Below, in pieces: positions 6,601 through 57,800 of a DNA stretch of 64,000 nucleotides. The stretch is from contig OU612066.1 in the NCBI GenBank assembly GCA_914767715.1, forward strand, positions 19,192,283 to 19,256,282, read 5' to 3'. The position numbers were made by a program, and so were the translations under genes. Position 1 is the first letter of the stretch; each line of letters starts with the position of its first letter. Origin of the DNA: Membranipora membranacea (Eukaryota; Bryozoa; Gymnolaemata; Cheilostomatida; Membraniporidae). Below the pieces are notes generated by a model that was not told where the DNA came from, did not search any database, and saw only the letters and a list, made by a program, of their open reading frames with translations.

Positions 6601-9600
6601 GACTAGCCTCATTTATGTGAAGATCCAAAGCCTATTCTGACAACAACCTAATGTGAAAACCCCAATTTGATACAGTCTATAAATATGGTGTTCTTTTAAA
6701 CTGGGGAAAGAAGAACAACAACAGCATGAACCATCAGTTTTTAGCTTTCACAGTGCGAATTGACAATTTTGTGTGAAGAAATTTTTTCGCCAGGTAAAAT
6801 AATCATTACTCCTTTTTTAATTCATCAATCAATCCTGTTTGTGAGGTTTAAATTCAATCATAACTCATCTCTTTTTACCGTTTGGTTGTCATTATGTTTT
6901 CTGCTAAGAAAACAAGGAGCTTGATATCGTGTCATCCAATCGCAACTTAAATCCTTTGCAGTAAGTGAACTTACATTGGTCCATTTGATTGCTTCAGCTT
7001 GCTCTTTCCATGACCAGCTCTCACATTTGGCTGCTCCATCTAGAGTGTACAAACATCAATATTCTATAAGTTTACAGTTAGACTAAGCAGCGCATAGAAA
7101 AGTAGTACCTATCAAAGACATACCTTGGAAAAATGTATGCTCACGGCTCAAGGCTTGCCTAAGTTGCAACTTAAGACACAATTTCTACGATAAACAAACT
7201 CATTATTTTCACTTAACTCGATCATCGTATCCTATCATATCTTTTAGGTGATAACCATTTGTTTATGCAATTATCTTTCAGCTGACTTCTTTCTTAGTGA
7301 TCATCTGTTGTCTATTATCCTGTAGGCCATATCTCATTCCATGTAATGGGTATGAGCAATATTTTGGTCCAACCATAATGATTCAGAAACAGTATCTACT
7401 TACACAAGAACTTCCAGGAATCATTTGAATATTGTAGTAATTGAAATCATAATAACGTGGGCTTCTACTTCCTAAATTACATGGCCCAAGATTTAACACC
7501 ATCTGTCGTGAAATCTAACATATAGCCTAGACCCCTAGAGGGACATTTCTCTCATGATAAAGCCCTTTGCCTAGTTTTTTAGAAAACTTACAGCCCTAGT
7601 TTGGTGAATCCGCATAGTTTGTCACAGGTTTCTCTCAAGTTGGTGGGAAGTTGTACTGATATGACCAAATGAAATTAGGAATACAGGAGTCAGGATTTGA
7701 ACCCAGCTGATGTTTGTAAAACTATGTATGACGAGTCAAAAAGCAGCACATCAGTCTTACTATAGAAATAGGCACATAGAAAGTTTGGTTTTAACATACC
7801 ACTGGTACTACTGGTGTCCTTATTAAATATCTTCTTTTTGATGCTGCTCAACTTTAGAGACTCTATTAGTTTGATACTATCTTGTAAGCCTTTGCTGTTA
7901 TTCTGCAAGGCCTCATACCTAAAATGGTAAATACGCATCACATTGCGGACTGAATTTTGTGTATCATGTTTTGATGCTTCTATCGTTTACGAGTTTGTAT
8001 TTATCACTATATCACACTCCAGGAACCAGTAATTAACCATCATCAACGGCTCCCAATGGATATATGTAAAGAAAAGGCTCATCAACCCTCAATTTTGTGT
8101 ACAGTTTACCATAAACATATCCATATCCATTGTTTGACCAAAGCTTTAGTTGTAGTAAGCTTCACTACTATAATTGTTTTCTCTAAAGTGGCTTTAGGTT
8201 TTTAGTTCCTCCTCATGGAAAATAGGCAAGTGCTTTATAGCAAGAATTTATATGCTCGATCTATATTGGATGGTTGGACAACTGCAATGAAACTGAGTTT
8301 GAATTATCTTTGTTAATTGTTACATCATGAAAACACCACCATTCTGTCGCTCCACCAACGGGCTGATTCATGGTGTTTTGTACAAGCCATAAACTTTTTG
8401 CAAAGCACTAGATCAATGCCAATTTTTTTTATCAATTAAAACAAATCACATAAAAAATTACTATAGTAGTGTGGCCAGTACATGACCCAAAGAGTCAGGA
8501 ATTAGTTACAGCAACCAATCGAGTTGTGTGAGGCAAATCATTAGAGCTTTTCAAAGATAGTCACTCTTATTTCATCTTCCAAAGCTGTGATGGAATCGCT
8601 TGATTGCCATTATCTCAATGAAGATTCCAAATATTGCTGGTCTTATTGGATCCATTGTATCAAACTGGTAGAGAACAATAGCAAATAAAGACTAACCGGT
8701 CAATGTTTTGCCTGAAGTACATCATTGAGAACTCCAACATCGAGAATTTCCCTGTTGAAGATGCTTGTTTTGCCATATCAGCAAGATCCTGAAAAATCCA
8801 TACAACAGCCTCAGATTAAAAAGATGAGGAAGAAGTTTGCTGTAGTTGCACATGATAGTCCCTTATATATGACTTATCACAGAAATATTTTATTGCGGGT
8901 ATCGACGCGTAAACACAGCATAATCGGGCTGGTGAGAAGATATCATCTGGGGAAAATTAAGCGCGATAAGCTTGTTTGAAACCCTAGTAGTCTGGATGCC
9001 TTGAGTGAGTAGAAGTGCAGTCCACAAGCACTTCATACAACCTGCTGCATATAACCTGCTCCGTCTATTTTTTAAGAATTCTCACTTTTTTGATGCTGAC
9101 TCCTTAGTGTGTAGTAGGATTGAAAATACTGCTAACATTTTTATAAATTTTGATACCCATATTCTTAACCAGTGCTACTGGAAATCATGCAGGATGCCAA
9201 AAATTAAGACTGAAAGATTTTTATGTAGTTTTATATCTACGAGTATCAAAATTTTAAATGATATGCCATTACAATCACAGAGCCTTTTTAAACAATTGTA
9301 AACTGTCTTCGGCGGATTTACCAATAAACTGCTATCTCATCTTATCTTATCATATATAACCTTCTGCATATACTGCCTGGACAATTTACACCCTTACCTT
9401 TCCATGAGAGCTGGCGCGTCGCCTCATAACGGGACTGCCAAAGCTAGCGGTTCGAGAGACATGCTTTTTCCTCAGTGTACTCATCCCCTCGTCTGCATTG
9501 CCATTGAATGAGCCATAAACCCAGCCTGCAACATAAACAATCATAAATGTAAAAAAGCCATAGTCACTCTCAGGTGGGGTGAAGAAAAAGGTGTCAAATG

Positions 9601-15700: not shown

Positions 15701-17069
15701 ATAACACAAAACACAATTTGCACGCAATCTGTCTTCTGCGTGCTTGATAGATAGCGGAGCAGAACCCTCGTTAAGAAGCTATAGAGCATTTGTGAAAACT
15801 GTTTGTACCGCAAGTATATGCATTTTCTTTCAAATGATAATTTAATTTATGCTGAGTGTGTAGAATTAGATTGAGATTGGAAACATATTGCAAACCGACC
15901 ACGTGTAAATGCCATCTCGGAACGTTCAACATTACAGATATAGTGTCAATCAATCCATCAATGTACCTCTGATTTCTGTACAGCTCAGGGTCTTGATAAT
16001 AAAGATCTCTGAAAACAGTCATGAGATATGACATAAAAACAAGGCAGCGTGTAAATGGATTCTCTTTAGTGCAGAGTAGTGAGAGCATTAGCGCTGTTCA
16101 GATGATAAACTGGTGAGGAGGGAGAAATAATCACACAATTATGAATTCTTTTGATGAGATACTTATTGGAATGGCATCTTCTGGTGCCAGAATATGAATA
16201 ACCAAAGACATATTCTGTTCAGCTCTTTATGAATTATCCTTTAGCCATTTAGGATGAGGTTTCTCTTCAATAATAATCAAAGAGAATGATGTCCAGATGG
16301 CTGAAGTATTTATTTTTGTTCAATCTGAGGAGGCCGCATCCAAGATGGGAGGTGACATTACATAGAGTGGATTCAATGAGAAGCGATAATTTTGGTTGAT
16401 ATGGTGAATTTTCTACCAAACATTGTAATCTCTTTTCTGAAAAACACGTCTTACAAACTAATCATCATTCACAATATTGACGACCACCTAAGCAAACCTT
16501 TTAGTACAGTATCGATTTTTGACAAGCAGAGAGTGAATAGAGGCTAAAACTCTCATCATGGCTCCAAATTTACCAACACTCTGCCTACGTCCAAACCCGA
16601 TCACAGAATAACTAGAAACAGAAAGGAATAGAACTCCAGACAGGTTATTTTAAAATCATCTCAACTGTCCAATTAAATGTAGTATAGTGATATCACAAAA
16701 TGGAAAAACCTTATCAATCGTCTACGTTTATCCTCAAGGCTCAATACTCACATTTGTATAGTCAAATAACAATTGGTCACTTCTCACAAATTAATAGATT
16801 GAGAATTATTTGTTTTTGTGAATACCAAAATACCATAAAATTGACATTCTTAGTTTATTAACTGTGATACACAATGTATCCTGTGCTTACCGCCGACCTT
16901 TTTCAGCTCGGTTCTCTCTCAACCCTCCGCTACAGGATATAGTCAACTGAGGAGCCTCACTTTGTATAATCTGTGTGAACACTGCACAAGCCAGACCTTC
17001 TATTCTTTCTATCAATGCCAGCCTGCATAACAATGCAAAATGATTTTTTGAAGTCTGCAAAATGCACAT
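12786..17069 (-). CDS. SPO11: SPO11, meiotic DNA double-strand-break transesterase (topoisomerase VI subunit A family)
   Basis: Eight minus-strand exons join in phase: 16891-17069, 16498-16611, 15900-16008, 15519-15605, 15038-15184, 14310-14450, 13295-13483, 12786-12905. They give 361 residues, close to animal SPO11 (about 390). The enzyme cuts both DNA strands to start meiotic recombination through a covalent tyrosyl-DNA link. The active-site motif TKRDLYYQD contains the Tyr pair at about residues 101-102. The Toprim metal-binding residues are present in FVLIVEKDATF (Glu about 188) and LVDADPHG (Asp about 242 and 244). KGYPDLSTR and WLGILPSD are family signatures. The last exon ends in YLPYRLGQAGMR and a TAA that overlaps a donor-like GGTAAAT; I take the stop as real. 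The start is the in-frame ATG at 17069. An alternative is splicing into 17022 from an unseen upstream exon, which would give a longer N-terminus as in vertebrates. Confidence 0.92.
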
Positions 17070-24400: not shown

Positions 24401-24961
24401 TGCAGTGGAGAAGCTTGGTATGCTTAGAACTAAGGCTATGAAAGAACGAGATGAAATCAGAGAATTACGCAGATACAGGTGATGACAGGTTTCATACACA
24501 ACAAATCTAATAGCTTAAAAACTGATGAAAAAGTTTGAAAGTACTGGTTTTACTCCATTAGCCCTATGTAAAGCTAGGAAATGTAATCACTTTTTTGTTG
24601 GTAATCAACGGTTTAAAACTTTTGTCTTTCTTACAGGTACACTTTAATAAGAATACGGTTCCCAGGTGATATCTATCTACAGGGAATATTCAAATCAAAT
24701 GAGACGCTTCAACATATACTGGATTTTGTTCAGGAGCATATGGAGTTTGACTGGCTGCCATTTTGGATCTCCTCATCCACTGGTCAGAGAATGAGTGACA
24801 CAAAGAAGACTCTAGCTGAGCTTCAGCTTGTACCAGCCGTGGTTGTGTACTTAGGTTATGATAAAGACTTACTTCAAGATGCCCATCGTCAAGGGGCTAA
24901 TCGATCAGTAGGTTTATTGAAACAATCGGTGATGGATAGGTTAGAAAACTGGGCCATATGA
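21452..24961 (+). CDS. UBXN6: UBXN6 (UBXD1), p97/VCP cofactor with PUB and UBX domains
   Basis: Seven plus-strand exons join in phase: 21452-21692, 21925-22149, 22344-22438, 22739-22908, 23893-24063, 24326-24478, 24637-24961; 459 residues. UBXN6 binds the AAA ATPase p97/VCP and works in ER-associated degradation, endolysosomal sorting and autophagy. The N-terminus (MSMIKRFFEKKKLDRKFKKA) matches the conserved p97-binding start of the family, which is followed by a low-complexity Ala/Ser linker. GVFFTCPL begins the conserved core. The PUB domain spans about residues 170-270 (KVCIETLCKYIDNL, GEEKFRKIRCGNKAFQDRV). MLRTKAMKERDEIRELRRY precedes the UBX domain, which begins near YTLIRIRFPGD and includes FDWLPFW and LVPAVVVYL. 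The start is the ATG aligned with the vertebrate start, but an acceptor just before it suggests an upstream exon. Confidence 0.93.
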
Positions 24962-26143: not shown

Positions 26144-29100
26144 TCATACTAGAGTTAAAGTTTTATCGTAAAGTTTTAATAGCCTTAGAGCCTCCGTCAA
26201 AGCTTCAGCGTTATTATTGACCAACATTGATGTATTAACATTCTGCTCCCATGTCATGTAGTAATTCTCTTGTTTCTTTGTTTGACTGTTTATAACTACA
26301 TTGAGTTTACCCATCAACTGACTCATGATGTGTGCATGAAGCCGATCTGATACCACAACCTGAAATAGATGTGATCGTATTGAAAATAAATTGAATTAGT
26401 ACAAATGTTACCCCTTTTCTCTGTATTGATGTAGAACACACAAAAATGGTGGGATAGATTTCAAACTGTGGAATACAAGGATAAATTACAACATAACAAG
26501 ACAATGCTTTCACATCCTAACTCTGTTACCTTAGCTCTGGAGAGGAAGGCTACACCAGTCATAGTACGAAGTTGGTGATCTTCCCAAAAGTTATCAGACT
26601 TTTGACTCATCCACTCATCTTTCCAGTCTGTCACCTGTAAGCATGTATATACAGTCATCTTATTTATACATCCCATTTTATGAAGGGTTAGTTTGTAGAG
26701 TACTTTGTATTGTACATATGATAAACAGTCACCCCTAAATTGATTTTCATGGTAGATTACTCTCCCACTACACTAATTCAAACTGTGCCCATATAGTTAA
26801 CACACTGACAGCGGTCGCAACCTCAGCGGCTCCTCAATTAGTTTTTATATAAACATCAATCCTCTGAGGATCAGCTGCGGCTTATGTGTTAGTAATGTGA
26901 CGTCATGCAAACCTGAGGTTGCAACCGCTTAGTATCAGCTGAGGCTGCTATCAGCATAATAAGTTGACAATGGTTACATTGTGCAAACATCTGAGCTCAG
27001 CTAAGTTAGCTGCCATAGGGGAAAGGGGGAGCAACTCCAAAATGCAGTAAAATTTGGTTTATTCATTTCTTATGGTATCCTAATCTTGAGTGTGCAATAT
27101 CTCAAGTAGATGTATTATGAATTTGACATTAGGATGTCTACGTTTGCCAGTTTTGCTGTAGCTAATTGCTTGGCATAAGGTTCAGAATCAGCAGACATTA
27201 AAAAAAGAGCCAAGACATTAACGCACCTCAATAGATACACCGGCAGGGAACTGAGGCATAGCATCTCCCTGTGATTCCCAGTCATCCCTTTTCAGCCACA
27301 CAATATCATACACTGGTACTATGTTCATTCTGATACTGCCAACAGCAAAGGCAGAGTCAGGTGCCAGGTAATTATGTGTAGTTTTGAAGTACTGCTCTGC
27401 CAAGTCGTATGAGTATCTACAACACAAATCCATTACATACCTACATACCATGTCAAAATACCACCCATAGAGTCACAATGTGCATACCTCTGAGCTCAGA
27501 GGTGATGAACCGCTAATTAATGTCTTTTCACTAGTTAGCTGCAACAAGCTAGAGGGGAGCAACTCCAAATTAATCTAGTTCTCTTGGTATCCTAATCTTG
27601 AGTGTGCAATATCTCAAGTACATATATTTTTACATTTATTCATACCAAAGGTAAAGACTTTCATCTTATCATGGTATGAACAGAGTGCAGCTGAGCACTA
27701 GATCTCACTAACCTGTCTCTGAGTACAACATGGACATCTTGGTGTTTGGCGAAGATTTGGGCAAACTGTTCAATCTCTGTACAAGGTTTGATAGGATGAC
27801 ACACACTTATCGGGAATACCATGACTCTGTTGTTAGGAAAGTTCTCTACTGTGGTTGTGCACACGTATTCATGTGATGGATGGCCTATGTACCCTGCACC
27901 TTGTATCAGTACTACCTAAAAAAAATAATGGTGGTTATAGACAGTTTTCTGAGCTCTTATGTATGCCTCAATTCGGAGTTGTCCTCTCTCCAGTTTGGTA
28001 CTTTTAACCCACGCCGCATAGGAAAAACCTGCTGAAAGAGGGTTATCTTGAAAACCGATTATGTTAGGATAAAAATGAGGGTTGATTCAGAGTCTGCACC
28101 ATTGAAAACCATGGGAGACAGGGTTTCCAAATCATTGGAGGCTTGGATTGTTGATAAATTTTAATTTTAGTGACGAAACTCATGAAAAATTCTGCCAAAT
28201 TGTCCGCAAAAAAGGCAGAAAATGCCATAATTGACTATCCAAATACTAAAATTATTTACCAAACTATGTCCATATGAGTTTTCAATGCTGCAGATTCTGA
28301 ATCAAAAATAATTTTTATCCTATTATAAGCAGTTATCAAGATAACCCTCTTTTCAGCACGTTTTTCCTATGCGGCGTGGGTTAAAAGTACCAAACTGGAG
28401 AGAGGACAACTCCGAATTGAGGCACAAATCGGAGCTCAGAAAACTGTCTATTGATGAGGATAATCACGGATATTGCGGGACATGCTAAGATCTTGGTAAT
28501 GGTGATCCTCTAACTGACCTAGAGGAGATTTTTGGATCAGAATTGTCTATCACTGTAATCTACTCACCAATTCAGGGTCGTCTTTATTGATACCAGAGAA
28601 ATCACAATCTCGTCCAGGATAGAAGCAGTGATATATTAGCTCTATACCCATACGTTCTAATATCCTACGCTGCCCAATGGTGATCAAATGATCTCCCTTA
28701 TTAAACCACTGGAACACATTCACCAAAACTGCCTTTTTATAACGCCCTTATGAAGAAAAAATAATGGAGATTATAATTAATACAAAGATGAACACATTAT
28801 ATGAATGCTGTTCAATCATGTGCTTTTTACCTTGACCTTTTTTCATGCTTCATGGTTATCTAATGAAGATTGGTGTGAAAATAAAAAACTTTGGGTGTTT
28901 CACTAAGAGTGTGAGATGATAGTCATTTCGCGATAACTGATTTATCCTTAAACATACAAATACTTTTTATTTACATGTTTACAGATTTATCAGTTCCACA
29001 AACCAATTAGCAATCGGTTAGAACTGCATATATCAAGGGACATATAAATGCAAGCATGAGGACCATTTTAGCCCTCTGTTTTTATAGGTTTCTCTTTTTA

Positions 29101-32100
29101 AAGTTAAAGTGCTAAAACTTTGCCCAGGTTGCTGGTAGTGGCATTTCATTATTAAATGCATCACTTGACTTTCTTTTTCGCAAGTTCTGCCTTGTTTCAT
29201 TTATTTGGAAACTGTGTATTCAGGGAGGGTGTAAGTTATAGTATGGCACAGAATACAGAGATTACCGATTATATGTGTGAACACCTCTTCATGTATCCTG
29301 TAAGCCTCCTTAATCAGAGAGATAGTGTCCTTCACTTTGATTGACTGTAGATTTGCTTTCGTCGGGTCCTCATAACTCTTTACCATATTCTGTCAATCAC
29401 AATGTGGTACGTTTTTTAGAAGATTCTGAAGATCTGGAGAGTGTTGATCAATCACACCATCAGAAACAACAAGATGAACAAACCAAAGGTTGCGCTCTAT
29501 CTCAAACTACAAACAAGTTGTTGACTACAGGGTAGATAGGGTGATGGTTGGTAATGTTGAGGGTACGGTTGGGTAACTTATAGCCTATATTGACAATCTT
29601 TTTGTTGGGGGGGGGGGGTTATCAGGTAGCTTAGTCATACTCATATTGATTGATTTTGGTAGTGTTTCTGTTTGTCAGGTGTATCATTAATATTAGCACA
29701 ATGCCATTAACTGGCGAAGGAATGGAAGATATCTCTGGTGATTGGTACTACAGGATTAACCAGATAAACATCCGATTACAGTATATGTGTGATGAATGAT
29801 GCACATCTTGGCATGACTATTAATGCGATAGGAATCATTCAATTGACAGGTTCTGTTACATCTTTTTGCCATAATTATTTTGAAAAAATTAATTAAAGCT
29901 TTTGCTGATCAGTTAGTAAAAAGGCTCAAGTAACTTCATTATTATTTTAGTATTTGGAATCTCCTTTTGATCAATTAAATTTTGACTTTTATTTTATATT
30001 TGATTGTGCAATAAATTGAATTAGGCCCTAATTTGAAATTAGTGACATAGTAAGTTTTTAAATAAATCTTAGTCATAACAAATTCTCACCAACTTTATTT
30101 CGAGACACTGATAAATAATGAATTTGATGTAAGACATGAAGTAGCCTACCTGTAGTAGGGTGTCAGCAGCTTCACCTTCTGCTGAGGCAGCCAACTCCTG
30201 CCTCCTATCACTCACAATTCGATCAACATTCAATGGTGGTAACACTACATTAGTCATGTGTTCTCCAGCAGAGGGATACAGAGCTACATCAGGGGTCGTT
30301 ATTGGAGATACAGTAGCTATGATCACAACCACTGCAGTCACTACTGTGATCAAACTGAGTGAAGCATTACTATCTGAAGCAAAAAAGGTTTCATGATTCT
30401 GTAAAAAAATGTGACTTGACCATCTGCAACAAGGTTGGTATATTCAGCTAATTGCAGGCGCAAAATTACATCTCCGCCATGAACACGGACAACTCCCTGA
30501 CAATTAAATATACCACTTGAGGACATACAAGGGTACAGTTAGTTCACTTTTCGTTGCAAACAATGGCAGATTTAACGTTGCTAGTCAACTGCAAAAAAAT
30601 TTTTTTCTAAATTTCTCATTTCCAGTTATTCAAGAGTTGGCCGTCTCAAGCCAAACATAGCCTAGTTTTTTGCAAAACAATCAACAACACTCATTCTGCA
30701 AGTGATATTCGAAATTAAAATAAATGTATTTAAAAAAGTTATCCATGCCACCTCAAATTAATTTAGCTTGTACTGTACCGTGTGACCTACGCGTTATCTG
30801 GAATATTGTTGTTGGACACCCTTCACAATTTCACACTTGGATGTGAAAAAAGGTGCAGGGCATTTTGGTAAATCCTAAACATGTAAAAAAAATCATCTCA
30901 CTTAGAGGAGTTGCAGGTAACTGCTCATTTAATCTCTACTTCTATTGAACCACCAACAAACCACAAGAACCAACCGCAAGCACCACCCACAAGCACCACC
31001 CACAAGGACCACCCACAAACCGCAAATGAATATTCATATTTCACCTAAATACCAGGAGGTGTGATCGGATATGACACTCCCACATGAAAAATGTCATTTC
31101 ATTTGACTAAGAAAGATAGGTTTGAACTTTTAAAGTCTGAAGCGCTGTTTTAAATCAAGAAATAGAACATAGGGATATATCACCACAAACTGGATGTATT
31201 TTAAGGTAGCATAATGTGGCAGTGATTGATTAATTGTGCCAAAAATTTACTCACCACTAAACGGGCAGACTTTTGGAAACATGTATATAGCAAGTCCTAG
31301 TAGCATAACTCCCCCCATGAGCCAATTATTTGAGGTCAGCATTGTCTTTCCAATGAAGTAGAAGACTGCGGCTACAAGTATTCTTTTGAGAAGATTTGAA
31401 GTTGCATGCCCAACAACAGAGGTGTATTTTAATATCACACATGTGGAGATGACTGTGTATGTAACATGGAAAAGGGCAGAGATTAGACTGTCAGTGATAT
31501 CAAAGCTGCTCGGTCTTTCAGTTAGAGCAATGATTAGTGATACCATAGCTATTAACACGGCGGCTGCAATGAGGCTGGCTTTGTAAAGCAAATCCAATTT
31601 CGACTTGATGGTCGGAGCTCCTTCTTGTAACAACTTGAGATTAATATTTCTTACTCCAAAAAGTATATTTGAAACGAATGCCATTGCGAGTCCAAAAGTA
31701 GCACCAGCTTGCAGAGATGGCTGCCAAACAAAGCCGAGGGCTCCTGACACAACCAGGGGTAGCGATATTATAACATGTGTCTGTAACTTAGAGCCGAGTA
31801 GCATTGAGGTTAGCACCGCAGTGGTGATTGGTTCAAATGATTTAATAGTAAAGGCTGATCCAGTATTTACAAATGCTATACTGGCGTTTGTGGAGAGCGT
31901 TGCCAAAGCATGTGCTATATACATTGATAGAGTTGAAGGCTCACTTCTTGGCTCTGTCACTGTTATATCACCATTTTGAGTAGATTTTTTACCAGTACTG
32001 TCGTTTCCCTCGTTTAAACTGGCAAACATGCCTCTATTGGCGAGCAGTACAAATATCTTCAACACACCACCTCCAACGAGCAGCTGTACAATAGTCAGGA

Positions 32101-32254
32101 GGAACACGGTGATCCATTCTTGAGCCCTTTTATCTGCGTCTCCTGCTTTGATTGTAGAACGAGCGTAGAAGTGTGCAAAGAATGAGAAGAGAGTCCATAA
32201 AATAAACCAAAAGATGCCAAATGTAGCCGTGGAAATCTGGACAGCCTGAGTCAT
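26144..32254 (-). CDS. Triose/PEP-phosphate-translocator-like transporter fused to a polysaccharide pyruvyltransferase
   Basis: Eight minus-strand exons join in phase throughout: 31255-32254, 30150-30373, 29266-29389, 28568-28746, 27713-27915, 27227-27416, 26530-26634, 26144-26359; 746 residues. Residues 1-333 form a roughly ten-helix transporter of the TPT/nucleotide-sugar-transporter superfamily. FTIKSFEPITTAVLTSMLLG and LFGVRNINLKLL match its HxxKxxEP and N-x-x-x-RN-x-x-x-K signatures, and the C-terminal part has NLLKRILVAAVFYFIGK. The second exon adds a hydrophobic span (about 339-357) and a linker. Residues about 450-720 are a polysaccharide pyruvyltransferase domain: NVFQWFNKGDHLITIGQ, IQGAGYIG, VFPISV, VVLRDRYSYDLA, LAPDSAFAVG, VYDIVWLKRDD, VVVSDRLHAHI and the KxxxYYMTW tail. 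Bacterial and fission-yeast relatives move a pyruvyl ketal from PEP onto sugars; plant TPT relatives include PEP/phosphate antiporters. I infer a Golgi protein that imports PEP and uses it. The ATG at 32254 follows an acceptor (CTACAG), so there is a 5' UTR exon upstream. The second exon has no ATG before its membrane span, which supports one fused protein. Confidence 0.86.
26806..26930. repeat. Short inverted-repeat element in a fusion-gene intron
   Basis: GCGGTCGCAACCTCAG near 26812 is mirrored by CTGAGGTTGCAACCGC near 26912-26927, bracketing about 90 bases with an internal CTCAGCGG/AGCTGCGG pair. It is a small fold-back, MITE-like element. Confidence 0.5.
27075..27620. repeat. Pair of direct repeats in two adjacent introns
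   Basis: A unit containing GGTATCCTAATCTTGAGTGT and then GCAATATCTCAAGTA occurs at about 27075-27110 and again at about 27584-27620. Each copy is preceded by GGGGGAGCAACTCCAAA-like or GGGGAGCAACTCCAAA-like sequence. The copies flank the exon at 27227-27416, so they are separate insertions of one repeat family or a local duplication. Confidence 0.6.
27937..28451. mobile_element. MITE-like element with about 115-bp terminal inverted repeats
   Basis: The left end begins ATAGACAGTTTTCTGAGCTC and the right end finishes with its exact complement. The match continues inward for over 100 bases (including AATTCGGAGTTGTCCTCTCT and CCCACGCCGCATAGGAAAAA) with a few mismatches. The centre has no coding capacity. 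It lies inside an intron of the pyruvyltransferase fusion gene. A diverged relative of its inner part appears at about 3560-3940. Confidence 0.85.
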
Positions 32255-35194: not shown

Positions 35195-35219
35195 AGTGAC
35201 GGTGCTGCTAACTGAGATT

Positions 35220-38200
35220 ATGACACTACTCAGACTTAATAAGGGAGCACTTGTATTGCTGCTCCTGCTGACATCAGCTGTGTTTGTTGTATTCAAAGTC
35301 GCCATGTATGATGGCGTTCTCAAAGGCCGAGCAAGCAGTCTGCATCAGGGAGAACTCTCTATAGAAACCCGACAACTCAGCAACGAAAAAGAGGCAAAAT
35401 TACCAGGCAATGCTAGAGGTATGTTGTTGTTAAGAATTAAAAAGCGTCAGGTGAGTCTCAGCAGGGTTTCTGTACTCAATGTTGGTCACGCGAAAGTGGC
35501 CGTGTGACCAGGATAGTAAATAGAGGCTTTCATTGTACTCATCAACAACCGAAATCTATCAAGCGAGGACTTAGAGGGAGAGAGACTAATTATTATATCT
35601 GTATAGGGTTCCCAATATATGCTCTATTTCTAGTTTAATTTCTAGGATAAAAAAAACTGCCCTCTTCTGATTAAATTTATTATCAATAAAGGAAAAATGT
35701 AGACCAGTCTCGAAAAAATATGTTTTGTGCAATAATGGAGTGATAGAGAAATTACTGTTTAACTTCTTAGTGCAGGTTGGAAGTTTCTCGTTTCTGATCA
35801 TTTTGTGAGTCAAATCTTGGTCAAGCCTTGCAATTATGTATCCAATGGTTTGGTTGATTAAAATGGTTGATTAAAATGAGTGGTCTTATCGCACTCCACA
35901 CCCTGAAGCACTTTTTATAAATGTAATTAAATATTTTTTTCATAATATTTAGATGTCTACAAAGAACAAACATCTCTTCATATCGACCAATCATCTACTG
36001 CGGCTGATTCATATCCTGATGGAGCTTATAGTAAAGAACAAATGCTACGGGGTCTGGTATTCACAGACCACACACAGCTAGGAAGTATGGAGGGAGAAAT
36101 GTCTCATAATGTGACCTTATCTGTTGTGAGTAATGGATAGCTCCAATGATAATAATACCCTGTAGGAGTGAAGCTTAGACTGAATACATTTACTCCTCAG
36201 GGGTAATTATATTTCTACAGCAGCATATTATTCCTAAAAGCACCTTTGTTGAGCAGAGTTTTGATTTAATCAACACAGGTGCAGGATGTCCAATTTGTCA
36301 TTAACTTTTACAATAGGGTTACTGGAAGAAAGATTGTTCTATGGTTTAAATAGCAAACAATACCAGTTAAGCTTCACCAACTCTTCTAAAAACTGTGTAG
36401 GAGGAACCAATCCTTCTTCATGAAAGATGGTTTTCACCATAGACTTAATAATAAGTCTATAGTTTTCACAATTGTTTGAACCAGAAAATCTATTCCTGTT
36501 TTCACATTAAGCCCCACCCACAAAATACTGTCGACAATTTTGAGAGGCATTGCACAAACCTCTGTTCAAGTGCAATGAAATTTATTGAATTGGCTGATAC
36601 ATTAAATTCCCCCCAATGAACTTCCTTCATTAATCAAACTATAAGTCGCAACCTAGACTAAATATATAATATAGTTTATGGTTGCAATCATCTAAGAATT
36701 GCAATCATAAATTAGCAATCATATAAAATAATAAGATGCAATTTTATAACAGAGTGCTTTGGCAGCTACCAAAGAAAAACAGCTTTGCCAAGAACCAAGT
36801 AGCTACCTATCAAGAACTTCTCAATTAGACAGGAAATTGGCGTGATTTTTATCTATCAAATGAAATCTATTGGAGGCTTTCTTGCTTTATCACAATGCTG
36901 GTTTTAAATATAGTCTAATGGAGTTCGATGCTGCAAAATTGCTGTGCATTATTCAAATTAAACACCAGCCTGATTAAGCTATAATTATCAGCTCTCTCAC
37001 TCAATCATAGGTGGAGTTTCAAACCTGTTTATTATATTATAGGTGAAATCTCTCTCCCCTGCAGTAATCGCCCATGTGAAAGATATATTCAATGATGACC
37101 ACAATGAAAATATTTATTTTGCAACAATTCCGGCGATTATAAAACGAGGTAACGCTGTAGAGGCTGTTATCAGAATATGGCTTGGACAGTTCGAGAAGAT
37201 GAAAACACACTACAGGAATAATGGTAATGAGCTTGTTTGATCATCTGTATTTTTAGGCCTTACTGACTTGGACTTATCATTACAAGCAAAAAAACAGTTT
37301 GAAAAAATTCAAGAGAAATAAAATAATATTCTAATGGACTGTTGTTAACTGTCCAAAAATCAATTATTAGAGGTTGTTTTCCATAACAAGCCATAATAAT
37401 TAGGACAAATGTCAGGGAATGAGAAAAGGAAGACCCTTTATTATGTGGAAGACTGTGTAGCCTATCTGCTTTTCAACTCTGCATTGTTGTATGCAACCGA
37501 AAAACAAAAGCATGTTCCGTAAGACTCTTTGTCATAACTTGGACTTATGCCCTGTTGCAGGTTGGAACCTCAATACTATGTTTAACGAGTGGAAGAATAG
37601 CTGGCAAGAGAATCACTTTTATCATGTCTTGCTTGATGAAAATTATAATCAGCTCAAACCAGGAGGGCTTATGGGAATTCCTACAACAACCAACGTCAAG
37701 TTCACATACAAGAGTGATGGGCCCATGGATCCCAGGTATGGCCATCATTAGCTTCCTCTTCCACAGACAATTGCAACAAATCATGAATACATGAGCTGCC
37801 AGGGCTTTTTCTGATATTCTGCCTGTACACATCTCCCTGGCAAGAAAAATGTGTAAGCACTAAGCACTCATTGCCGCAGCATCCTACTTGTGCTAAGTAC
37901 GCTGGGTTGTTGTACAAATTTGACTTGAGATGCCATTTGGGCTCCTGCAAATATATCCTGTGAAGAAGTAACTTGCATATCTGTTGATTTATTGTAGATT
38001 AGTGCAGAGTGGTGACAGCACACTTCTGATCTTCCATACCTGGTTAGTGGACAAGAACTCAAACAATGAAGTTGGGGGCAGACCACATATCTGGGATATG
38101 GACAGACATGTCAAACGTAGACTGTGGCCCCATATCAATCTTCAGCGGACAGAAATCAATTGGATACCTCTCGATATAAATGGAGAACTATATTTTACTT

Positions 38201-39631
38201 ACAGGTAAGAGATGAGCTAATGCGTAAACCCGTGGTATAGTGGTTCGGTATCTGAGCTTTGTGATTAATAATAATTACAATAACTCTTCAGGGTCAGCGC
38301 TAATAGAAAATTTTGTATTGGGTGTATTTCGGACACACTCTGCTTCTGAATCATGCACCTGGTGAATTAAATAATAAAGGAATTTTTAACGAACATAACT
38401 AATGTATTACATGATGGCCACGGCTATCTTTAAATAATTGTATAATAATGATATGGTTTGTATTTAGTGATTATATCTGGCCATTCCTAAAAGAAGGTCA
38501 ATCTCTAGGGTGTTGGAGAATGGAGGAGTGATATTGCACTATTCAGTTTTACACAGTTTTTAAAATATCCCTCAGCCGCCTGGAAAAACTGTGTCATTCC
38601 TACAAGACTGGAGAAATATGCGCTTATGTAATTAATAGACATTCAAGTTTACATATATTCAAAACTTGAATTATTTTCTCTGCTTCAAAGTGCAGATAAT
38701 CCCAAAATGTCCGATATTTAAAATAATGTGATATTATTATGAAAAGTGTGTCCTTCGGGTTAATCATGATGAAGTAGCAGTAGAAGTAGCAGTGTGATCG
38801 ATCTTCACTTTGGTTAGCCAGAAACCTCTTATGCAAAATACTACTCAGTATTTCATCATTATATCAGATTGCTGTTTATCTGCTGTACCTGCTGGCCAAG
38901 GAAAATGGAATTCCATATACATTCAGCTAAAAAATATTATCAGCATTGCCAAAATGTAGTGGTTCTTGCAATATATTTTTTATTAATTTACCCTTTTTGT
39001 TCTTTATTGAAGCATCGATCCACTGAGGGTGATGAAATGCAGCAAAGCTGATGGAGATTGCCAATTCGTCTATGAGCAAGATGGAAGCGCAGAGAATCCT
39101 TTTGTATATTCCAATGACCATTTACGAGGTGGAACACCATGGGTCGAATATAAATACCCATATTATATAAGCATTGCACACAATGTAGCATCTACTTATA
39201 AACCCTATCAAGACTTTGCCATATACAATGCGAATCTAGTTGTTATCAATGTCAAGGACTGGAGAGTAGTTTATGTCAGCAGAAACATTGCAGCGAATAC
39301 AAAATGGCTGCAGACTGACCCAGTCATCAGGAATCACACGATAGTGGCTCCATTTTGGTACCCTACAGGTATTATACTCCACACTCCAGATATTGTGGAC
39401 ATATCATGTCATCTAAATGATGCAAGTGGACATATACTCCGCCTCAGAGGTGTCGAGAAAATCTTGGGACAAGTGATGAATACTGATAAGACAATGAAAT
39501 CTGATAGAGGACCCTCTGTTCGTGTTGCACAGCAGTATGTTCTAGAGTCTACTAAGCGATTGTACAAGGATAAATGGGTATTTATGGGAGACATTATTGG
39601 CAAAACTGTTGAGGGAAAAGATATCACATAG
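35220..39631 (+). CDS. Type II membrane glycan enzyme, GH130/beta-mannosyltransferase-like
   Basis: Six plus-strand exons join in phase: 35220-35418, 35953-36125, 37043-37223, 37561-37735, 37998-38204, 39013-39631; 517 residues. A short basic N-terminus and a single hydrophobic helix (GALVLLLLLTSAVFVVFKVA, about residues 9-28) predict a type II Golgi protein. A charged stem follows (to about 130), then a catalytic-like region. The most telling pieces are INWIPLDINGELYFTYSIDP, which fits the E/Q-x-NW-x-P...Y-S-I-x-P pattern of GH130-like and related glycan enzymes, and LRGGTPWVEY...YYISIAHN, which fits their R-G-G-T-P...H pattern. The resemblance to GH130 phosphorylases and fungal beta-mannosyltransferases is at pattern level only, so the sugar and the direction (transfer or breakdown) are unknown. 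The start is the ATG 25 bases after the acceptor. It is transcribed divergently from the pyruvyltransferase fusion gene. Confidence 0.75.
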
Positions 39632-39660: not shown

Positions 39661-41426
39661 AATGTGTGTAGTACATCACAAGCCTTTTTCGAGTACACAT
39701 TTGAACAGAAGCAATACAAATCGTTATCTGAGACCTCAGTGTAAGTTGTTACCTAGCGGTTAGTCTGTTGGTCATTGGTCACTGGTTTACCGAGTTTGAG
39801 AGTTCCAAGGTAGCTTGTTCTCAATAAGGTTTTCTTACCGATAATATGCTCTGCTGCTTCACTGGCCCCGGACACCAGTTTCAACTTAATAATAATCTAT
39901 TAGCTCCAGACTTAGATAGCTTGTTTCAGGTATTGTCAATTCAGTCGAGTTGTTATTTGAATCTAGCAACACAGTGGTAATGTAAATGTTTAAACCGGGG
40001 ACCAGGGACCTGGAACCATTCTCCCTGCTGGGACCTGGGACCATTCTCCCTGCTGGGACCAGGGACCTGGGACCATTCTCCCTGCTGGGACCTGGGACCA
40101 TTCTCCCTGCTGGGACCATTCTCCCTGCTGGGACCCTGCTCAAACTCTGTCTGGGTTACTGGTGGTGGCCTTCCATTATCAACCACCTCACAAACAGTGA
40201 TTAGGTTGTGGTTGATGGAATGGAACTATCAGCAACCAGGTCAGAGTTGAACAACTTTGACTAACTCATCATCTTTCCCTCCCTAATCCAACAATCTGAT
40301 GACCGGGCGGTAATGATGTAATGTTCACCGCTTCGAAGTACCCATTGTGGCTTACATTAAGCGGTATATAAAAAAACTCATTATTATTAATGCAATATAG
40401 GGGCTCCCTGCACACAATGCTGTCTTCAATTTCTTCAGAGAAAATGAGCAATCTTCAATTTTAAAACTCTTCAGAATAAATTCTTCAAAACAACTGGACT
40501 CGAGTTAAAACTGCTGTAACTAAATGCCTGTGAGAACTGAGCCAGCAAGTTTATTAGCTAATGAAAGTGATCATTTTTTTCTAGATAATTAATGCACCTG
40601 GTGGAGATCAAATTTGGGATCCTGTGATCCAAAATCAGTAACACGGATGGCCTGGTTTTGGCAGGGAGGGTGGTTTTGGTTTGTTGTTATGTGGAGTTGT
40701 CTGTTCAAACCAACAAACCCAACCTGAGTAGATAACTTCAAGTTGTATGACCAGGGAGAATGGTCCCTGGTATGACTGAATCCAGTCTACTAGAAATTTG
40801 GAAATCTTCTATTGATTTTTCATTTAGATCTTTTCTTCAACTTTAAAACACTCAATCCTCAATCTACAGTAAAATACGCGGGGAGCCCCAATATACATAA
40901 TTTCGATCTTACATCTATTTGCTGCCATATATAGCTTATAGCTTGTCTGTGGGCATTTCCGATGAGTTCCTGCTCTCTACTTTTTTGCTGCAACTTGCTA
41001 TGTGTTGGGTATTCTTGGCAGCGGATGATCAGGGCTCGTTTTATTCAAGACAAGCATTGGCTGGAGGTGGTGATATACCAATTTCAGCCTCAACAGTGGG
41101 TCCTTCATTTAGTATTTTCCAATGTTTTGCATTAGAACTTTTTTTCCGTCTGGATTGGGTGAATAAATTTTACTGTAATTCCCTGTAGTTTCTGAACACC
41201 AAACAGTGCAAAATATACCCGGGTCTCAAACCTCCTCAAACATTGAATAAATCCAGAATTGAAAGTGAAAGCTGGAAATCTGGAATCTCAAATTTCTAGT
41301 AGGTGGAAGTCGTGTTCTCATGCCTTAGGTTATTTTCTCTTAGCTTAGCCTCAAACCAGTGAGTTTCAATTAATAATCACAATACAGGCTGGATTTGTTT
41401 GTGAGTATTGAGGCTAAGCAGTGGAC
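39661..41426. other. Intergenic region between the glycan enzyme and PDHX
   Basis: Apart from the minisatellite, no coding exon is evident. The open frame at 40919-41188 has no family features. The PDHX promoter should lie near 41.2-41.4 kb. Confidence 0.4.
40003..40142. repeat. Minisatellite (GGGACC / ATTCTCCCTGCT units)
   Basis: Variable tandem units built on GGGACCTGGGACCATTCTCC followed by CTGCT, with longer and shorter versions, repeat about five times. A related inverted copy (ACCAGGGAGAATGGTCCCTGG) occurs near 40750. It is markedly GC-richer than its surroundings and keeps reading frames open on both strands, which explains the spurious repetitive open frames here. Confidence 0.9.
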
Positions 41427-44400: not shown

Positions 44401-45233
44401 TCTTAGAATATGAAGTTTTAGATTACCTGTTCATCCTGTTCCTTAATTGTGGTATGTAGTAGGGTACAGTCTATAACACGAGATGAACAGACACACATAA
44501 ACTGTCAGGCATGAGTCTCTCTGGACTGATTTTATTTAGGAGTTATCAAGTGATCTCCCAATGATACAGTTTGGGAGTGTGGTCCATCAGGTTCTCTACG
44601 AGTGCAATCGTTCCTTACTAGCTTTGTCCCAGAATTGCAGACTAGATAATATTGAAGTATTTATTAATTATATTTGTTTTATAGGAATTAGCTGGAAGAG
44701 CCAGAGAAAACAAGCTCAGACATCACGAGATAGTTGGGGGTTCTATGACGTATGTATAGTTTACCTGCACAAGTATAAGATTAGGAATACACAACAAATA
44801 CAGCAGACCAACAGGGCCTTGTGCCATATTGTGTTCAAAGGTCAATCTCTGTTAAGGTGGCCAGTATTTCTTGTGTTTTGCAGGCTTTCTCAGTGTCTGT
44901 TACGTTAATCTTTCTTCAGTTATTGATAAAGTCTGGTGAGACTGGCCCTCCCTTTTCTCATTTTATAAAAAAATCATATTATTTTGTTGTTACAGGGTGT
45001 CAAATTTGGGAATGTTCGGTGTCAAAGAATTCAAGGCTGTAGTCAACCCTCCTCAGGCTTGTATACTGGCTGTCGGAAACGCTCAACTTAAACCTAATGA
45101 GGATAGAAGTCTCGACACCTACATGAATATAACACTATCCTGTGATGGCAGAATTGTTGATGATATTCAAGCCAGCAGATTCATAGAACTTGTGAAAGAT
45201 TTGATAGAAAACCCGGTGGGGATAGGACTGTGA
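41427..45233 (+). CDS. PDHX: PDHX-like E3-binding protein of the pyruvate dehydrogenase complex, lacking a lipoyl domain
   Basis: Eight plus-strand exons join in phase: 41427-41587, 42453-42548, 42870-43008, 43501-43599, 43868-44005, 44217-44375, 44685-44749, 44996-45233; 364 residues. E3-binding protein anchors dihydrolipoamide dehydrogenase to the mitochondrial complex. Residues 1-53 look like a mitochondrial presequence (basic and hydroxylated, no acidic residues until about residue 31). Residues about 56-92 are a peripheral-subunit-binding domain (FGPSVRLLLTLYDIKSDAVA, ATGPHGHLLKGDVLSYI). Residues about 145-364 are the acyltransferase-fold core (MRKTIAKRITISK, IPHVYAS, KVSVNDIIVKSCAAAL, VSNLGMFGVKEFKAVVNPPQ, ending ENPVGIGL). 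The catalytic DHRxxDG motif reads DGRIVDD, so the His is Gly (about 337). Such loss marks PDHX rather than catalytic DLAT. No lipoyl domain (ETDKA-type motif) occurs between the presequence exon and the binding-domain exon; they splice directly in phase. The first exon is the least certain. Confidence 0.88.
42003..42257. mobile_element. Fold-back (MITE-like) element in a PDHX intron
   Basis: AGGGGGGTCTTTCAATTAGAAA at the left is mirrored by TTTCTAATTGAAAGACCCCC at the right. In between are a further TTTCAATTAGAGAAAATCGC copy and inverted CACTCAGT/ACTGAGTG words. It has no coding capacity and occupies the intron between the presequence and binding-domain exons of PDHX. Confidence 0.75.
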
Positions 45234-51836: not shown

Positions 51837-54800
51837 ATGACAACTGTAAATGAGATGTCAGCTAACGCCCTAAGAGTATTAGAGGATGATGATCTCACAG
51901 AGTATCCAGTATTAGCCCGTGGGTATAATGTAAATGTAAATCACTTTTTATATAGCTGCTCTCCAGCAATCTTTACATGAATATAAGATAGATACATATA
52001 CATACTCAATTTAGCGCACTCCTGTACAAGGTAGGAGTGGGCAAGCTAGGCTATTGTCCAGAGAGCTCACCTCCTTCAGCAGCATGGGTAGTGACCAGGA
52101 TTTGAACCTGCAATTCTCGGATTGAGATGCTCGAATCCTAACCACTACGCCACCCTGCCTGCCTGTATATATAATATTCATGCAAGGTTATCAAATCTGC
52201 AATATCCGTTAATCCTGTCAAATCAATACGCTCTCTTCAGAATGTCTGTATCGTTTATTGTAAGTAAGATGTTATATTATTTATGCACTGATCTTCAATT
52301 TCTTTCAGCATTCACTTGGTTTGGTATAGACATCGGTGGCTCCCTTACCAAACTCGTCTACTTTGAGCCCAATGATCTGCCCAATGATGATGATGACTGT
52401 TCGGACCTCAAGAAAACCATCAGTATCATACATAGATATCTCTCTGGTAATACTGCCTATGGTAAAACAGGTTAGTTAATTTGTGTTTGTCTGGAATGTT
52501 TCCTTTTTGTAATACATTTTTCATGATCATTTCCAACAGAATAGGATAATATAATTTTTTTGTTATGGGTAACGCTTTGGGTTTTTTTAATACCAACAGG
52601 AAAACTGTTTGTATGATGCACAACAGATTAGCAACACTGGCTTAATAAATAAGTCTGTTTGTCGGTGTCAATTGGCAACCTGTGCATTTAAAAACTGGGA
52701 GTTATTTTCAGACCATGGCCAGAGTTTTAATACTTACTATCAGCAGCATAAATTGCAGATATATATTGATTATGAAATATCTAACCCTTATTTTACATCA
52801 TTTTTGCCAGTTCATAAATGAATAAAAATTGATGTTATCACACAATCCATATTTTACTGGTATTGAAATGGGCTGATACTCTTGGCTCCAGCCATTGTAC
52901 ATTGTACATTATTATTATATTTTCATTAATACAGAACAAACACAGAAAATTCACCATCAAACAGTTTTGAGTAAAATTTTTGTGTAAAAAACTTAATCAG
53001 GATTCAATAAAAAATAGACTCATCAATTCATACAAAAAATGTTCAGTGCTGTCTTTGTTTGACTGTGAGGAGTGACCAATGTTTATGTTTATTATACAGG
53101 AATATCCTTATTATCTTTATACATTGATAATGAATAAGTCTCTCTCAGAATGGTAGAGCCATTTTAATTAGCTGAACTGTTAGATCAGGGATTTGGTGTG
53201 GAATAACCTAGTCTAGCTAGTGAAATCATTTAGGTGATGCTCAATATTTTTGTTATTCTATGTTGTCATGTCATTGTTTCGTAAGGTTCAGACTCAGAGT
53301 CTACCATAAATATTATCAGCAGGTACAAGCAGCAATTTTATCAGGAATCCAAATTATTTGTGACAGGCTGGCCTTCATTTTCTTCACAGGAATAAGAGAC
53401 ACACATTTACAAGTGAACACAATGTTAGGTGGTTACCACGGCTCCATGCATTTTATCAGATTCCCTACATCGGAGATGCCTGCATTCATTGAACTCGCCA
53501 AATCCAAGAATTTCTCACTGCTTGGTACTACAATATGTGCTACAGGCGGGGGAGCACACAAGTTCTCTGAAGAATTTGAGAAGGTTAGTATCATTTACTT
53601 CATACTTTTGCCTTATGAGCGCGTAATATCAATCAGAAGCACTCAACTAAGCAAGTAAACCTACTGCTAACTCAATCTGATAATGACTATAATATCTGTA
53701 GTAAGACCAGAGACTATCAATATGTTATTATCTATAGTCTCTGGTATGACCAGCTGATTTCTCCTTGTTATGACTCCAAAATTTTTACAATTTGTTTGGT
53801 GGTTACTCAACAGTTGTGGATTTCAATACTGAACCCTTCAAATGTATGATAATGATAGATACTACAACTTCCTGCTGTTGGGTGCAAAACTCTCTTCAAT
53901 TTAAAGAACAAGGCTATAATCACTGAGTAAGGATATATCCTTACTCTGTGATATAACGATACTGGAGAGTTTCCCAGAATATTACAATTATACTTGCAGA
54001 GGATATATAATTTACTCCGGTACAAATGAATCAAGGCCTGTGTAGTATGTAGCATGGCCTGATGTATTATGATATGGTCTGATGTTATACAAATAAGTAA
54101 ACAATGCACTTTGTACACGCTTACTCCAGCTGATAGCTTTGTGTGATGACAGGGTAATACACTGCATTTACAGTGTATTATTAGTTTGTAAGAAATGGAC
54201 ATTTAATTTCACTGACGAATATAGGACACACAGAGTATATATAGTCACTGACAACTCTGAAAGAATTTTGTGATATCTTTCTGCAAATTTTTGTTATATG
54301 TTTCTGCAAATAACCCAATTTCTTCATGGCACATCACACTTAAATGAGTGGTGTGGGTTTTACAATACGGGCTTATCTGCCATATCTACTACTGCGTAAT
54401 TGAGATCAAATGGACCCTGGTCATTTTTATATCAGATTATCATAGTAAGATTCATAGTTACATGACATAGATTCCGCAGGGCAAATAACAAGCCTTCATG
54501 TTGCCGAGCAGCCAGGCTGAGATTAAACAAATCTTATAATGTTAAGTCTGGTGGTGAGACCACAGATATCATTCCAAGCATCGCAGCTGGTCCCAACTGG
54601 TTTAATTTATGGTTACAATCCAAATTTCTAAGAGTTACAGCATCATGCCTGTCTAGTCATCCAGTCTCTTTCATTCCTGTTATTGGTATCCAAATTTACA
54701 CTATACAATATGATTGTTTTCATTTCCAGCAATTGAAGATGAGGCTGAGGAAAATGGATGAGTTGTCAACATTAATCCGTGGCATTCACTACATGGACAG

Positions 54801-57800
54801 TATTAACTCTTGCGAGTGTTTTTTCTACACCGATGCTAAGAATGACGATGTGTGCGCAAAACACGACTTTGATTTCCGTAATCCCTACCCTTACTTGTGT
54901 GTCAATGTCGGATCTGGAGTTAGTATTCTTATGGTAGATAAACCCAACTCATTCAAACGTGTCGGTGGTACCAGGTAAGATTTAAAAAAAAATTGTTTTG
55001 AAGAAATAGTAGAATGCAGATTTATCCATTCAAACCCAGAAACACAATGCACTGTAGCATTCAATAACTTTATCATGCATGCCCAGATTTTGCTGTCCCG
55101 CAGTTAGGTGAGACCCTTAGGGATGAATTACAACATATTTGTAGGGCTGAACAAAGGAGTAAAAGAGCTGAACTCTACCCAACCCTAATATATATTGTTT
55201 CCAAAAAATTATGCATAGGCATAGGCGAGATCAAATTGTGTTCTCCAGGAGGAGATAACTCATATTTAGAACAAGGCACATAAAAATATCAGGTGTTGTG
55301 TATTGAATTTTTCAGCCTTGGAGGAGGTACTTTTCTCGGGCTATGTTGCGCCCTGACAGGTTGCCAGTCATTTGAGGAAGCCTTAGAACTGGCCTCACAA
55401 GGAGATAATTCTAATTGTGATAAACTGGTCTCCGATATTTATGGTGGAGATTATGAGAAGTTTGCATTACCAGGTGACCTTGTCGCTAGCAGGTGAGGGT
55501 GCAGTGATAGTCCAATCTCTGCATGGATCCATCCATCAAATGAATGAACATTTGTAATATTCATCAGTATTAATATTAATATTATATTGTAATAACATCA
55601 GTCAATATTGCAATTTTTTTAGGGGCATATTATTGCGTTTGAAGGCAAACAATTGATATGCCTGCATAATCCAAGTTTTGCAGATCAACTTTTAAAATTA
55701 TTGCATTCACTTGATTGTAGTTTTGGTCACATGATGGATCCGGAGCGTGTGAAATCAGCCAGCAAAGCTGATCTAGCTCGGTCCTGCTTGGCAATGATAA
55801 CCTACAATATCTCATCTCTAGCTCGGCTCAATGCGGAAAAGCAGGTTAGTCAAAGCTGTGACCTTGGTGAAATCAAGGCAGTACATCATACAATGAGAAT
55901 AGTTAAGATGTTGTGGTGGAGTATGTTTGAGAAACCCATAAACATAATATACGTATTTGTATGTTTATGGAGAAGCCTGTTTCATGTTTATGGAGTTTTG
56001 TGCTCTCATTGAACTAACTGACATTACCAAACAACTCCAAGTCTAGGTCGTCATTGCGGAGAGGGTTACCCCTTTAGAGTTAAGGTACGGGGACCCATGG
56101 TACTTAAGCCGCACCCTATACCCTTCCCCGCCGGAGTTCCGGCTACTCTTATTATCGAAGAGGCAGAGGGGGATCTTTTTACTGCATGTGGGGTGTGCAA
56201 ACACACAGTGGACCTCCGGTATTTTTAGTCCTGTTCCGCAAGGAACTGGCTAGGATGAATGGCGCGCCAGTACCAAATCAGAAATGACTGCAGGCACCGG
56301 GACCCTTAACCATCAGACCACTCCTGACTCCCAACTCCAAACTCACTATCACTTTTTAACAATTAATTGAATGTTTTAAACCATTCTCTTTATTCAGGGA
56401 ATTGAAAGAGTGGTGTTTGTTGGTAACTTTTTACGAAAGAACACCATATCAATGAGATTGATAGCCCATGCTATGGACTATTGGTCTAAAGGCTCCATGA
56501 AGGCACTTTTTCTGCAACATGAGGTAATGAAATATCAGTGAATTATATATAATTGTTTTTGTAAATAGTACATATTGACCATTCTCTAGGGAAATTGTAT
56601 GCTACAGAATATGTCAGGTGCAATATTCATATTAGAATTTCCTACATGATATCCTTATCCCTTTTATAATTTTGATTGTTGGCTCAGGCAAATTTGTGCA
56701 CACTGATTTCTGTATAGCCCCAAGATAGCTAATTGAGGCTTTAATCTCAGAATGGTCACCTGACGGGCAAATATTTTGCACAAACTGATCTTCGAAATCA
56801 GGGTATGAAATTAACACACTAGCTGATGATGTCATTATTGATCACTAGTAAGACTGTAACTACCCCACATGTTACTGTAGATAATTAATTTCATACCCTG
56901 ATTTTTAGTTTCAGTTTGTGCAAATTATTTGCTCATGAGGTGACAATGCTGAGATCCCAGCCTCACAATATTAGTTTTCAATAAGCACACATTTGCCTGT
57001 GTACTAGCAGTGGTTTAAGAATCAAAGAAGAATTTTTTAGATGTTTTCCGTCCTTTTACCCAGTTTACAGTCGAGCTCTGGTTAGTGGTACACAACAACG
57101 CTGATTTCAACCATCAATCTTGGTCATGTTAACACAATTAAATCAAGTGATCTAATTTAATGAATCGCTTTAAAAGTTTTTATTTGATTAGACAGCGTAT
57201 TACATCAATTTGTTAATCCAATTTTGAAGTCTGTTTCCCAATGGTAGTGTCACTCCACTTCTTAGCTAATTAGCTTCGTCTGGAAGGCGGATTCACTTTG
57301 TTTTCATTGATTCTTCATAACAATAATGAGGCAAATCTTACACGCATGTTAGGATATCAGTTGATTGGAGAAGGTATTTGTGCAGATACTGTCCCACGTT
57401 AAACCTGCTCTATAATATCTAATAATGTTGTCATCTTGTTTTGAGTAATTTTATCAGTAATGTCAATCATCGACCTTTAAATCCCATAATTTTAATAATC
57501 AGAGTGCTTGTATTAATCATGCCAACCCAAGAAACTCAGCTCCAATACATCAATGCCATGCAGATGAAATTAGTTTACCCTCAGACGGAACTCCCTGTCT
57601 AAATTATACTACTTCAAATTTGGTTTTCAACAGTGGTTTCTGATGACTTTCTAATAGTCATATAAGATTATGATATCATAAAGGTAAAACGATTACCTTG
57701 TTATAACACTTTCTATTGAACCTTCATGAGTCATAATCGCCCACCAAATAAACATACATGAAAGCAATTCCGGTATAACCAGTATACAGATGCAACAACA

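Follow-up and report, generated by a model that had tools for sequence, protein, structure and literature searches.

Organization of the gene

The window analyzed here, a 64,000-nucleotide stretch of the genome of the bryozoan Membranipora membranacea (contig OU612066.1, positions 19,192,283 to 19,256,282 of the forward strand), carries a predicted gene in which a transporter of the triose-phosphate translocator (TPT) type is joined to a polysaccharide pyruvyltransferase. The gene occupies 32254 to 26144 of the minus strand, and its eight exons, spliced in frame, give a model of 746 residues with one terminal stop. All seven introns are GT-AG and their phases are compatible. A preliminary description of the locus had proposed these eight phase-compatible exons, and its coordinates, its residue count, and its motifs were all correct. 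The parts of the gene are the following:

31255 to 32254, minus strand: exon 1, 1000 nucleotides, residues 1-333 plus one base, encoding the whole ten-helix TPT-type transporter
31930-31283, minus strand: TPT Pfam match in exon 1, residues 109-324
30374 to 31254, minus strand: intron 1, phase 1, GTGAGT...TTTTTGCTTCAG
30955-31018: tandem repeat with a 13/26-base unit, inside intron 1
30150 to 30373, minus strand: exon 2, encoding the first part of the stem, preceded by membrane helix 11 (residues ∼337-355, 30365-30309)
29266 to 29389, minus strand: exon 3, stem and start of the transferase domain
28568 to 28746, minus strand: exon 4, NKGDH motif; D468 (28693-28691), equivalent to Pvg1 D106; C490 and C497
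27713 to 27915, minus strand: exon 5, H524, equivalent to Pvg1 H168; R575 (27720-27718), equivalent to Pvg1 R217; C548 and C554
27227 to 27416, minus strand: exon 6, transferase domain with PDSAFAVG
26530 to 26634, minus strand: exon 7, transferase domain
26144 to 26359, minus strand: exon 8, SDRLHAH motif; R681 (26344-26342), equivalent to Pvg1 R337; H683, equivalent to Pvg1 H339; stop codon

Two other acceptors for exon 3 were ruled out by in-frame stops; the acceptor at 29390/29389 reads through. Since a splice acceptor-like CAG sits five bases upstream of the ATG, the gene may also have a 5' untranslated exon. A Pfam scan of the 746-residue model returned TPT at residues 109-324 (57.8 bits against a cut-off of 30; E = 1.5e-15) and PS_pyruv_trans at residues 465-699 (73.3 bits against a gathering cut-off of 25.3; E = 4.1e-20), bearing out the earlier claim that PF03151 and PF04230 occur in one gene. 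Hydropathy analysis revealed an extra membrane span at residues 332-366, immediately past the junction of exons 1 and 2.

The junction between the two halves

Can this junction be trusted? In the frame of exon 2, no ATG occurs from the last upstream stop to the membrane span, as the preliminary description had stated. We scanned intron 1, except its last 60 bases, for alternative first exons with three donor patterns; the single ATG-led piece that splices in phase into exon 2 (31037-31004) encodes 11 amino acids and lies partly in the tandem repeat. Unspliced exon 1 reaches a stop two codons beyond the donor (31247-31255), so retention of the intron could yield a transporter-only product.

A whole-protein search with the 746-residue model, proposed earlier as a check on the fusion, covered 5.77 billion proteins. 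In this and all other protein searches only the 7,995 to 7,997 candidates sharing the most words were scored (7,995 here, at a threshold of E = 0.001). Four proteins passed, and all four (P0001 to P0004) run unbroken through the exon 1/exon 2 junction. P0001 is an uncharacterized protein of Watersipora subatra, a bryozoan of the Cheilostomatida, and matches 99% of the query at 65% identity; near the junction it reads FKDTNASLSL, compared to FSDSNASLSL in the window model. Counted as identical over aligned residues, its agreement with exons 1 to 8 is 188/324, 24/64, 25/41, 56/60, 58/67, 54/64, 27/35, and 55/71. The Ensembl annotation of Watersipora is described, in passages of PMC12902671, as built mainly from transcriptome alignments, and P0001 either is that gene model or comes from a different annotation of the genome. 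The other three are predicted proteins: P0002 (656 amino acids, contig of 2,954 bases), P0003 (757 amino acids, contig of 4,092 bases), and P0004 (804 amino acids, contig of 2,823 bases); they look like transcripts because the contigs leave little room for introns. P0002 is without roughly its first 112 residues.

The linker encoded by exon 2 is alignable and weakly conserved (24/64, 18/68, 15/65, and 9/62 identities to the four fused relatives), and because linker and junction are common to Watersipora and three further contigs, we rejected a chimera of assembly or annotation. The fusion of transporter and pyruvyltransferase in one gene, first put forward in the preliminary description, is thus well supported and conserved.

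Relatives and distribution of the fusion

Among the fused relatives, P0001 to P0003 score above both Pfam cut-offs, and PS_pyruv_trans reaches 55.0 to 70.3 bits in all four. The first half of P0004 aligns, yet its TPT score is 12.6 bits against the cut-off of 30, and it has lost the pocket Lys, Tyr, and Arg with its transferase residues intact. Judged from these residues, the transporter half of P0004 appears to have decayed, and the fusion can apparently outlive transport.

Profile searches returned nine stand-alone transporter frames of 322 to 372 amino acids, P0005 to P0013 (four in the first search, all nine in the second); P0006 corresponds to exon 1 of the window gene itself, differing at a single residue. 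The junction glycine is present in all nine, eight times at equal spacing and one residue later in P0013. The short tails beyond it are mostly unlike each other, with a Trp shared by P0012 and P0013. We take these frames to be exon 1 of the relatives' genes because a glycine followed by unlike tails is what an unspliced phase-1 G|GT donor should produce. A Lingula anatina protein of 362 amino acids, P0014, ends in SKYCLSS one codon off the same place; this end could be donor read-through (AGT AAG TAY) or may equally belong to an unfused gene.

A transporter tree that omitted P0006 and P0015 did not separate fused from unfused proteins (4 label changes, a value that was as low in 273 of 500 shuffles); such mixing would follow if the unfused frames represent no more than exon 1. 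P0003 and P0014 are paired at 100/100, with a program warning about long branches meeting; the branch of P0004, at 7 or more, makes its own placement meaningless. On the basis of this pairing, the fused gene is probably also present in a lineage near Lingula, such as brachiopods or phoronids, besides bryozoans.

Searched against its own genome, the transporter query matched a single sequence at E ≤ 0.001, that of the window itself (two candidates scored). PF04230 gave no match in the Membranipora genome, which we attribute to the splitting of the domain over exons. No stand-alone animal transferase appeared among the protein-search matches, a result that proves little, since scoring was restricted to the candidates sharing the most words and P0002, though in the query alignment of the second profile search, went unreturned by it; true relatives may therefore be missed.

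Predicted structure of the protein

Structure models were made of Watersipora P0001 rather than of the window protein. Mean predicted local distance difference test (pLDDT) scores were 51.2 with four sequences and 74.1 with fifteen; the latter model has a predicted template modeling (pTM) score of 0.48, and for this reason we do not interpret how the two halves are positioned against each other. The model consists of ten transporter helices and an eleventh helix (H327-346), followed by a stem of low confidence and a domain resembling Pvg1. Its transporter half has the TPT fold, the closest sequence match among solved transporters is the plastid translocator 5Y78, and structure comparison revealed the same fold in nucleotide-sugar transporters.

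In Golgi relatives, the ten-helix TPT arrangement puts both ends of the chain in the cytosol. Because ten helices leave the ends cytosolic and the eleventh crosses the membrane, the stem and the transferase are predicted to lie in the lumen, with the Golgi as the likely compartment.

The pyruvyltransferase half

D106, R217, and R337 of Pvg1, for which catalytic roles are proposed in passages of PMC4872226, correspond to D468, R575, and R681 and are invariant in five sequences. The Pvg1-type, GT-B-like fold is found in the model of P0001. From sequence, the predicted class of the enzyme, a Pvg1-type ketal-pyruvyltransferase, is firm.

The domain resembles that of bacterial polysaccharide pyruvyltransferases (CsaB, WcaK, and WbbZ type) in belonging to PF04230, and a contig scan with the transferase domain and Pvg1 yielded 106 stretches and 56 bacterial loci with relatives. 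Identity to the bacterial enzymes is 21 to 41% over the best matched pieces. Bacterial polysaccharide pyruvyltransferases are stand-alone enzymes. A contig scan with the C-terminal alignment gave 84 pattern matches and no relatives. A viral origin was rejected after an IMG/VR scan in which none of 12 pattern matches was a relative. In a tree of the five animal sequences, Pvg1, and 32 of the 56 bacterial loci, the animal sequences group together (100/100) and adjoin two bacterial ones (93/86), not Pvg1; because the animal branch measures 2.05 changes per column, we draw no conclusion on origin.

The transporter half and its cargo

The Pfam score and the ten-helix fold of the P0001 model place the transporter within PF03151, the TPT and SLC35 drug-metabolite transporters. 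The window protein retains the pocket of the plastid triose-phosphate translocator apart from a His-to-Thr replacement, its residues being T119, T122, K138, F199, R202, Y266, K290, and R291. These eight positions are kept in 13 of 15 aligned rows, including P0006 from the same species, and Thr replaces the pocket His in all 14 rows with a residue there. The phosphate site is present as K138, K290, R291, and Y266, which we take to be K204, K362, R363, and Y339 of the phosphate-exchanging plastid phosphate translocators (Galdieria numbering). The likeness to plastid TPT and PPT proteins (5Y78) thus extends over fold, the phosphate-site Lys and Lys-Arg, and sequence; in contrast, the bryozoan protein is an animal protein, fused, with an extra helix and Thr for the pocket His, and its resemblance falls short of an identification as PPT.

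One feature of the pocket speaks against phosphoenolpyruvate (PEP) as the cargo. F199 is kept at the position of Arabidopsis F262, where a PEP-transporting translocator would be expected to have a small residue; of the 14 rows with a residue at this position, 13 have F or Y, and P0004 has Arg. The aromatic F262 of Arabidopsis TPT is thought, in passages of PMC6981301, to exclude PEP. The NCBIfam model for phosphate/PEP translocators, TIGR00817 (curated cut-off 317.9), gave 43.9 bits with the window frame. Of eight further proteins scanned, seven scored 34.4 to 73.4 bits and P0004 had no match.

A proposed mechanism and its alternatives

PEP is the donor of the pyruvyltransferase family, and the reaction frees inorganic phosphate. 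Diatom TPT-type carriers are described, in source passages, as phosphate antiporters. Because a PEP-using enzyme frees phosphate and TPT-type carriers are phosphate antiporters, donor, by-product, and counter-substrate close a loop. We consider it probable that the protein is a Golgi PEP/phosphate exchanger tethered to a lumenal ketal-pyruvyltransferase, with phosphate as both by-product and counter-substrate and with galactose as the most likely sugar. The ten-helix part would be a TPT-fold exchanger of organic phosphate and inorganic phosphate, both of its termini being cytosolic. With the eleventh helix the chain would pass into the lumen of a secretory compartment, most likely the Golgi, where the transferase would sit on a flexible stem. 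PEP would enter through the exchanger, the transferase would put the pyruvyl group on a sugar, most likely galactose, and the freed inorganic phosphate would leave through the exchanger, so that donor import, donor use, and by-product removal would be joined in one chain. One protein would probably both import the raw material and put negative charges on surface sugars. Whether several lophotrochozoans have in common such a self-contained pyruvylation machine, with exchange and transfer chemically coupled in one chain, phosphate driving further PEP import, and perhaps PEP channeled directly from carrier to enzyme, seems to us evenly balanced.

The parallel with fission yeast, raised in the preliminary description, is borne out by passages of a review (PMC6801904), in which Pvg1p works with the Golgi PEP transporters Pet1p and Pet2p and donor import serves the transferase. 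The fold and catalytic residues are likewise of Pvg1 type, whereas the yeast proteins come from separate genes and, with the long animal branch of 2.05, the animal transferases do not join Pvg1 in the tree. Golgi SLC35 nucleotide-sugar transporters have the same fold; with lumenal glycosyltransferases they bring the donor in and take the transferase by-product out, as separate proteins. Unlike in those systems, the donor expected for the bryozoan fusion is PEP.

The transporter could instead carry triose phosphate, 3-phosphoglycerate, or a nucleotide sugar used for the acceptor glycan, the fusion only co-locating or co-regulating glycan-building steps. Five of six listed pocket positions are as in plant TPT, the Phe among them, and the fold is common to nucleotide-sugar transporters; the fused enzyme family uses PEP, however, the Lys/Lys-Arg phosphate site is retained, and the pocket His is uniformly Thr. 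Passages of PMC6981301 moreover count, among three transporters reported to move PEP, a diatom TPT of a kind that keeps the Phe with His and Tyr changed, a partial parallel because the window protein retains Tyr. We regard a different cargo as unlikely and infer PEP despite the Phe, on the basis of the closed donor/by-product loop that is split between proteins in fission yeast. Of the preliminary proposal that the fusion imports PEP and works in the Golgi, the fused gene, the two families, and the likeness to yeast stand, while PEP and the Golgi are likely rather than established, with the Phe kept.

Alternatively, an active transferase might be served by a separate PEP carrier, its transporter half reduced to a membrane anchor or regulator. 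P0004, with its pocket lost, its transferase residues kept, and its TPT score below the cut-off, resembles such a state, but the conservation of the eight pocket positions in 13 of 15 rows makes this highly improbable. Least probable of all are two adjacent genes, in which a separate transporter would stop two codons beyond 31255 and a type II pyruvyltransferase would start from a short, unseen first exon within intron 1: the stop past the donor, the nine stand-alone frames, and the Lingula protein would suit them, but we rejected this model given four proteins that cross the junction, three on contigs with ≤0.4 to 1.9 kb outside the coding frame, the read-through pattern of the nine frames, and one weak alternative first exon only.

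Pyruvylated galactose is on record from Aplysia, a sea hare, and Microciona, a sponge (1989 to 1995 papers cited in passages of PMC6801904), and pyruvate is found on sea-hare glycolipids and sponge glyconectins (passages of PMC6994554); the passages of both reviews on these glycans name no animal pyruvyltransferase. In the open-access literature searched, "pyruvyl transferase" and "triose-phosphate transporter" did not occur together, and among the matches listed for pyruvyl with bryozoan, metazoan, SLC35, or transporter-fusion terms, none described the fusion by title or abstract start. The parts of the fusion are known, in a combination that we did not find described. The gene is a concrete candidate for an animal pyruvyltransferase with a testable mechanism, and the fusion provides an argument for the cargo of an uncharacterized animal transporter. 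If true, the mechanism would mean that in nature a Golgi donor importer is covalently joined to its donor-consuming enzyme, with the by-product as counter-substrate.

Surrounding genes and repeats

Head to head with the fusion gene lies a plus-strand neighbor (35217-39631) with a likely type II membrane protein start at 35217-35507 and coding-looking pieces at 37461-37751 and 39011-39631, the latter group with YPYYISIAHN. No Pfam match above cut-off was found for the three pieces scanned, and a PDB sequence comparison of its 206-amino-acid piece gave nothing below E = 0.42. The neighbor may encode an enzyme that acts on glycans in the lumen, with a promoter region in common with the fusion gene. 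Other Pfam-supported genes in the window are the following:

15771-16097, minus strand: TP6A_N gene (type IIB topoisomerase/SPO11 kind)
24617-24961, plus strand: UBX domain gene
44940-45233, plus strand: 2-oxoacid dehydrogenase acyltransferase gene
54466-54978, plus strand: pantothenate kinase (Fumble) gene

Rfam gave no matches at gathering scores over the whole window. A tandem repeat at 39998-40118 has a 57-base unit in 2.1 copies that are 98% alike.
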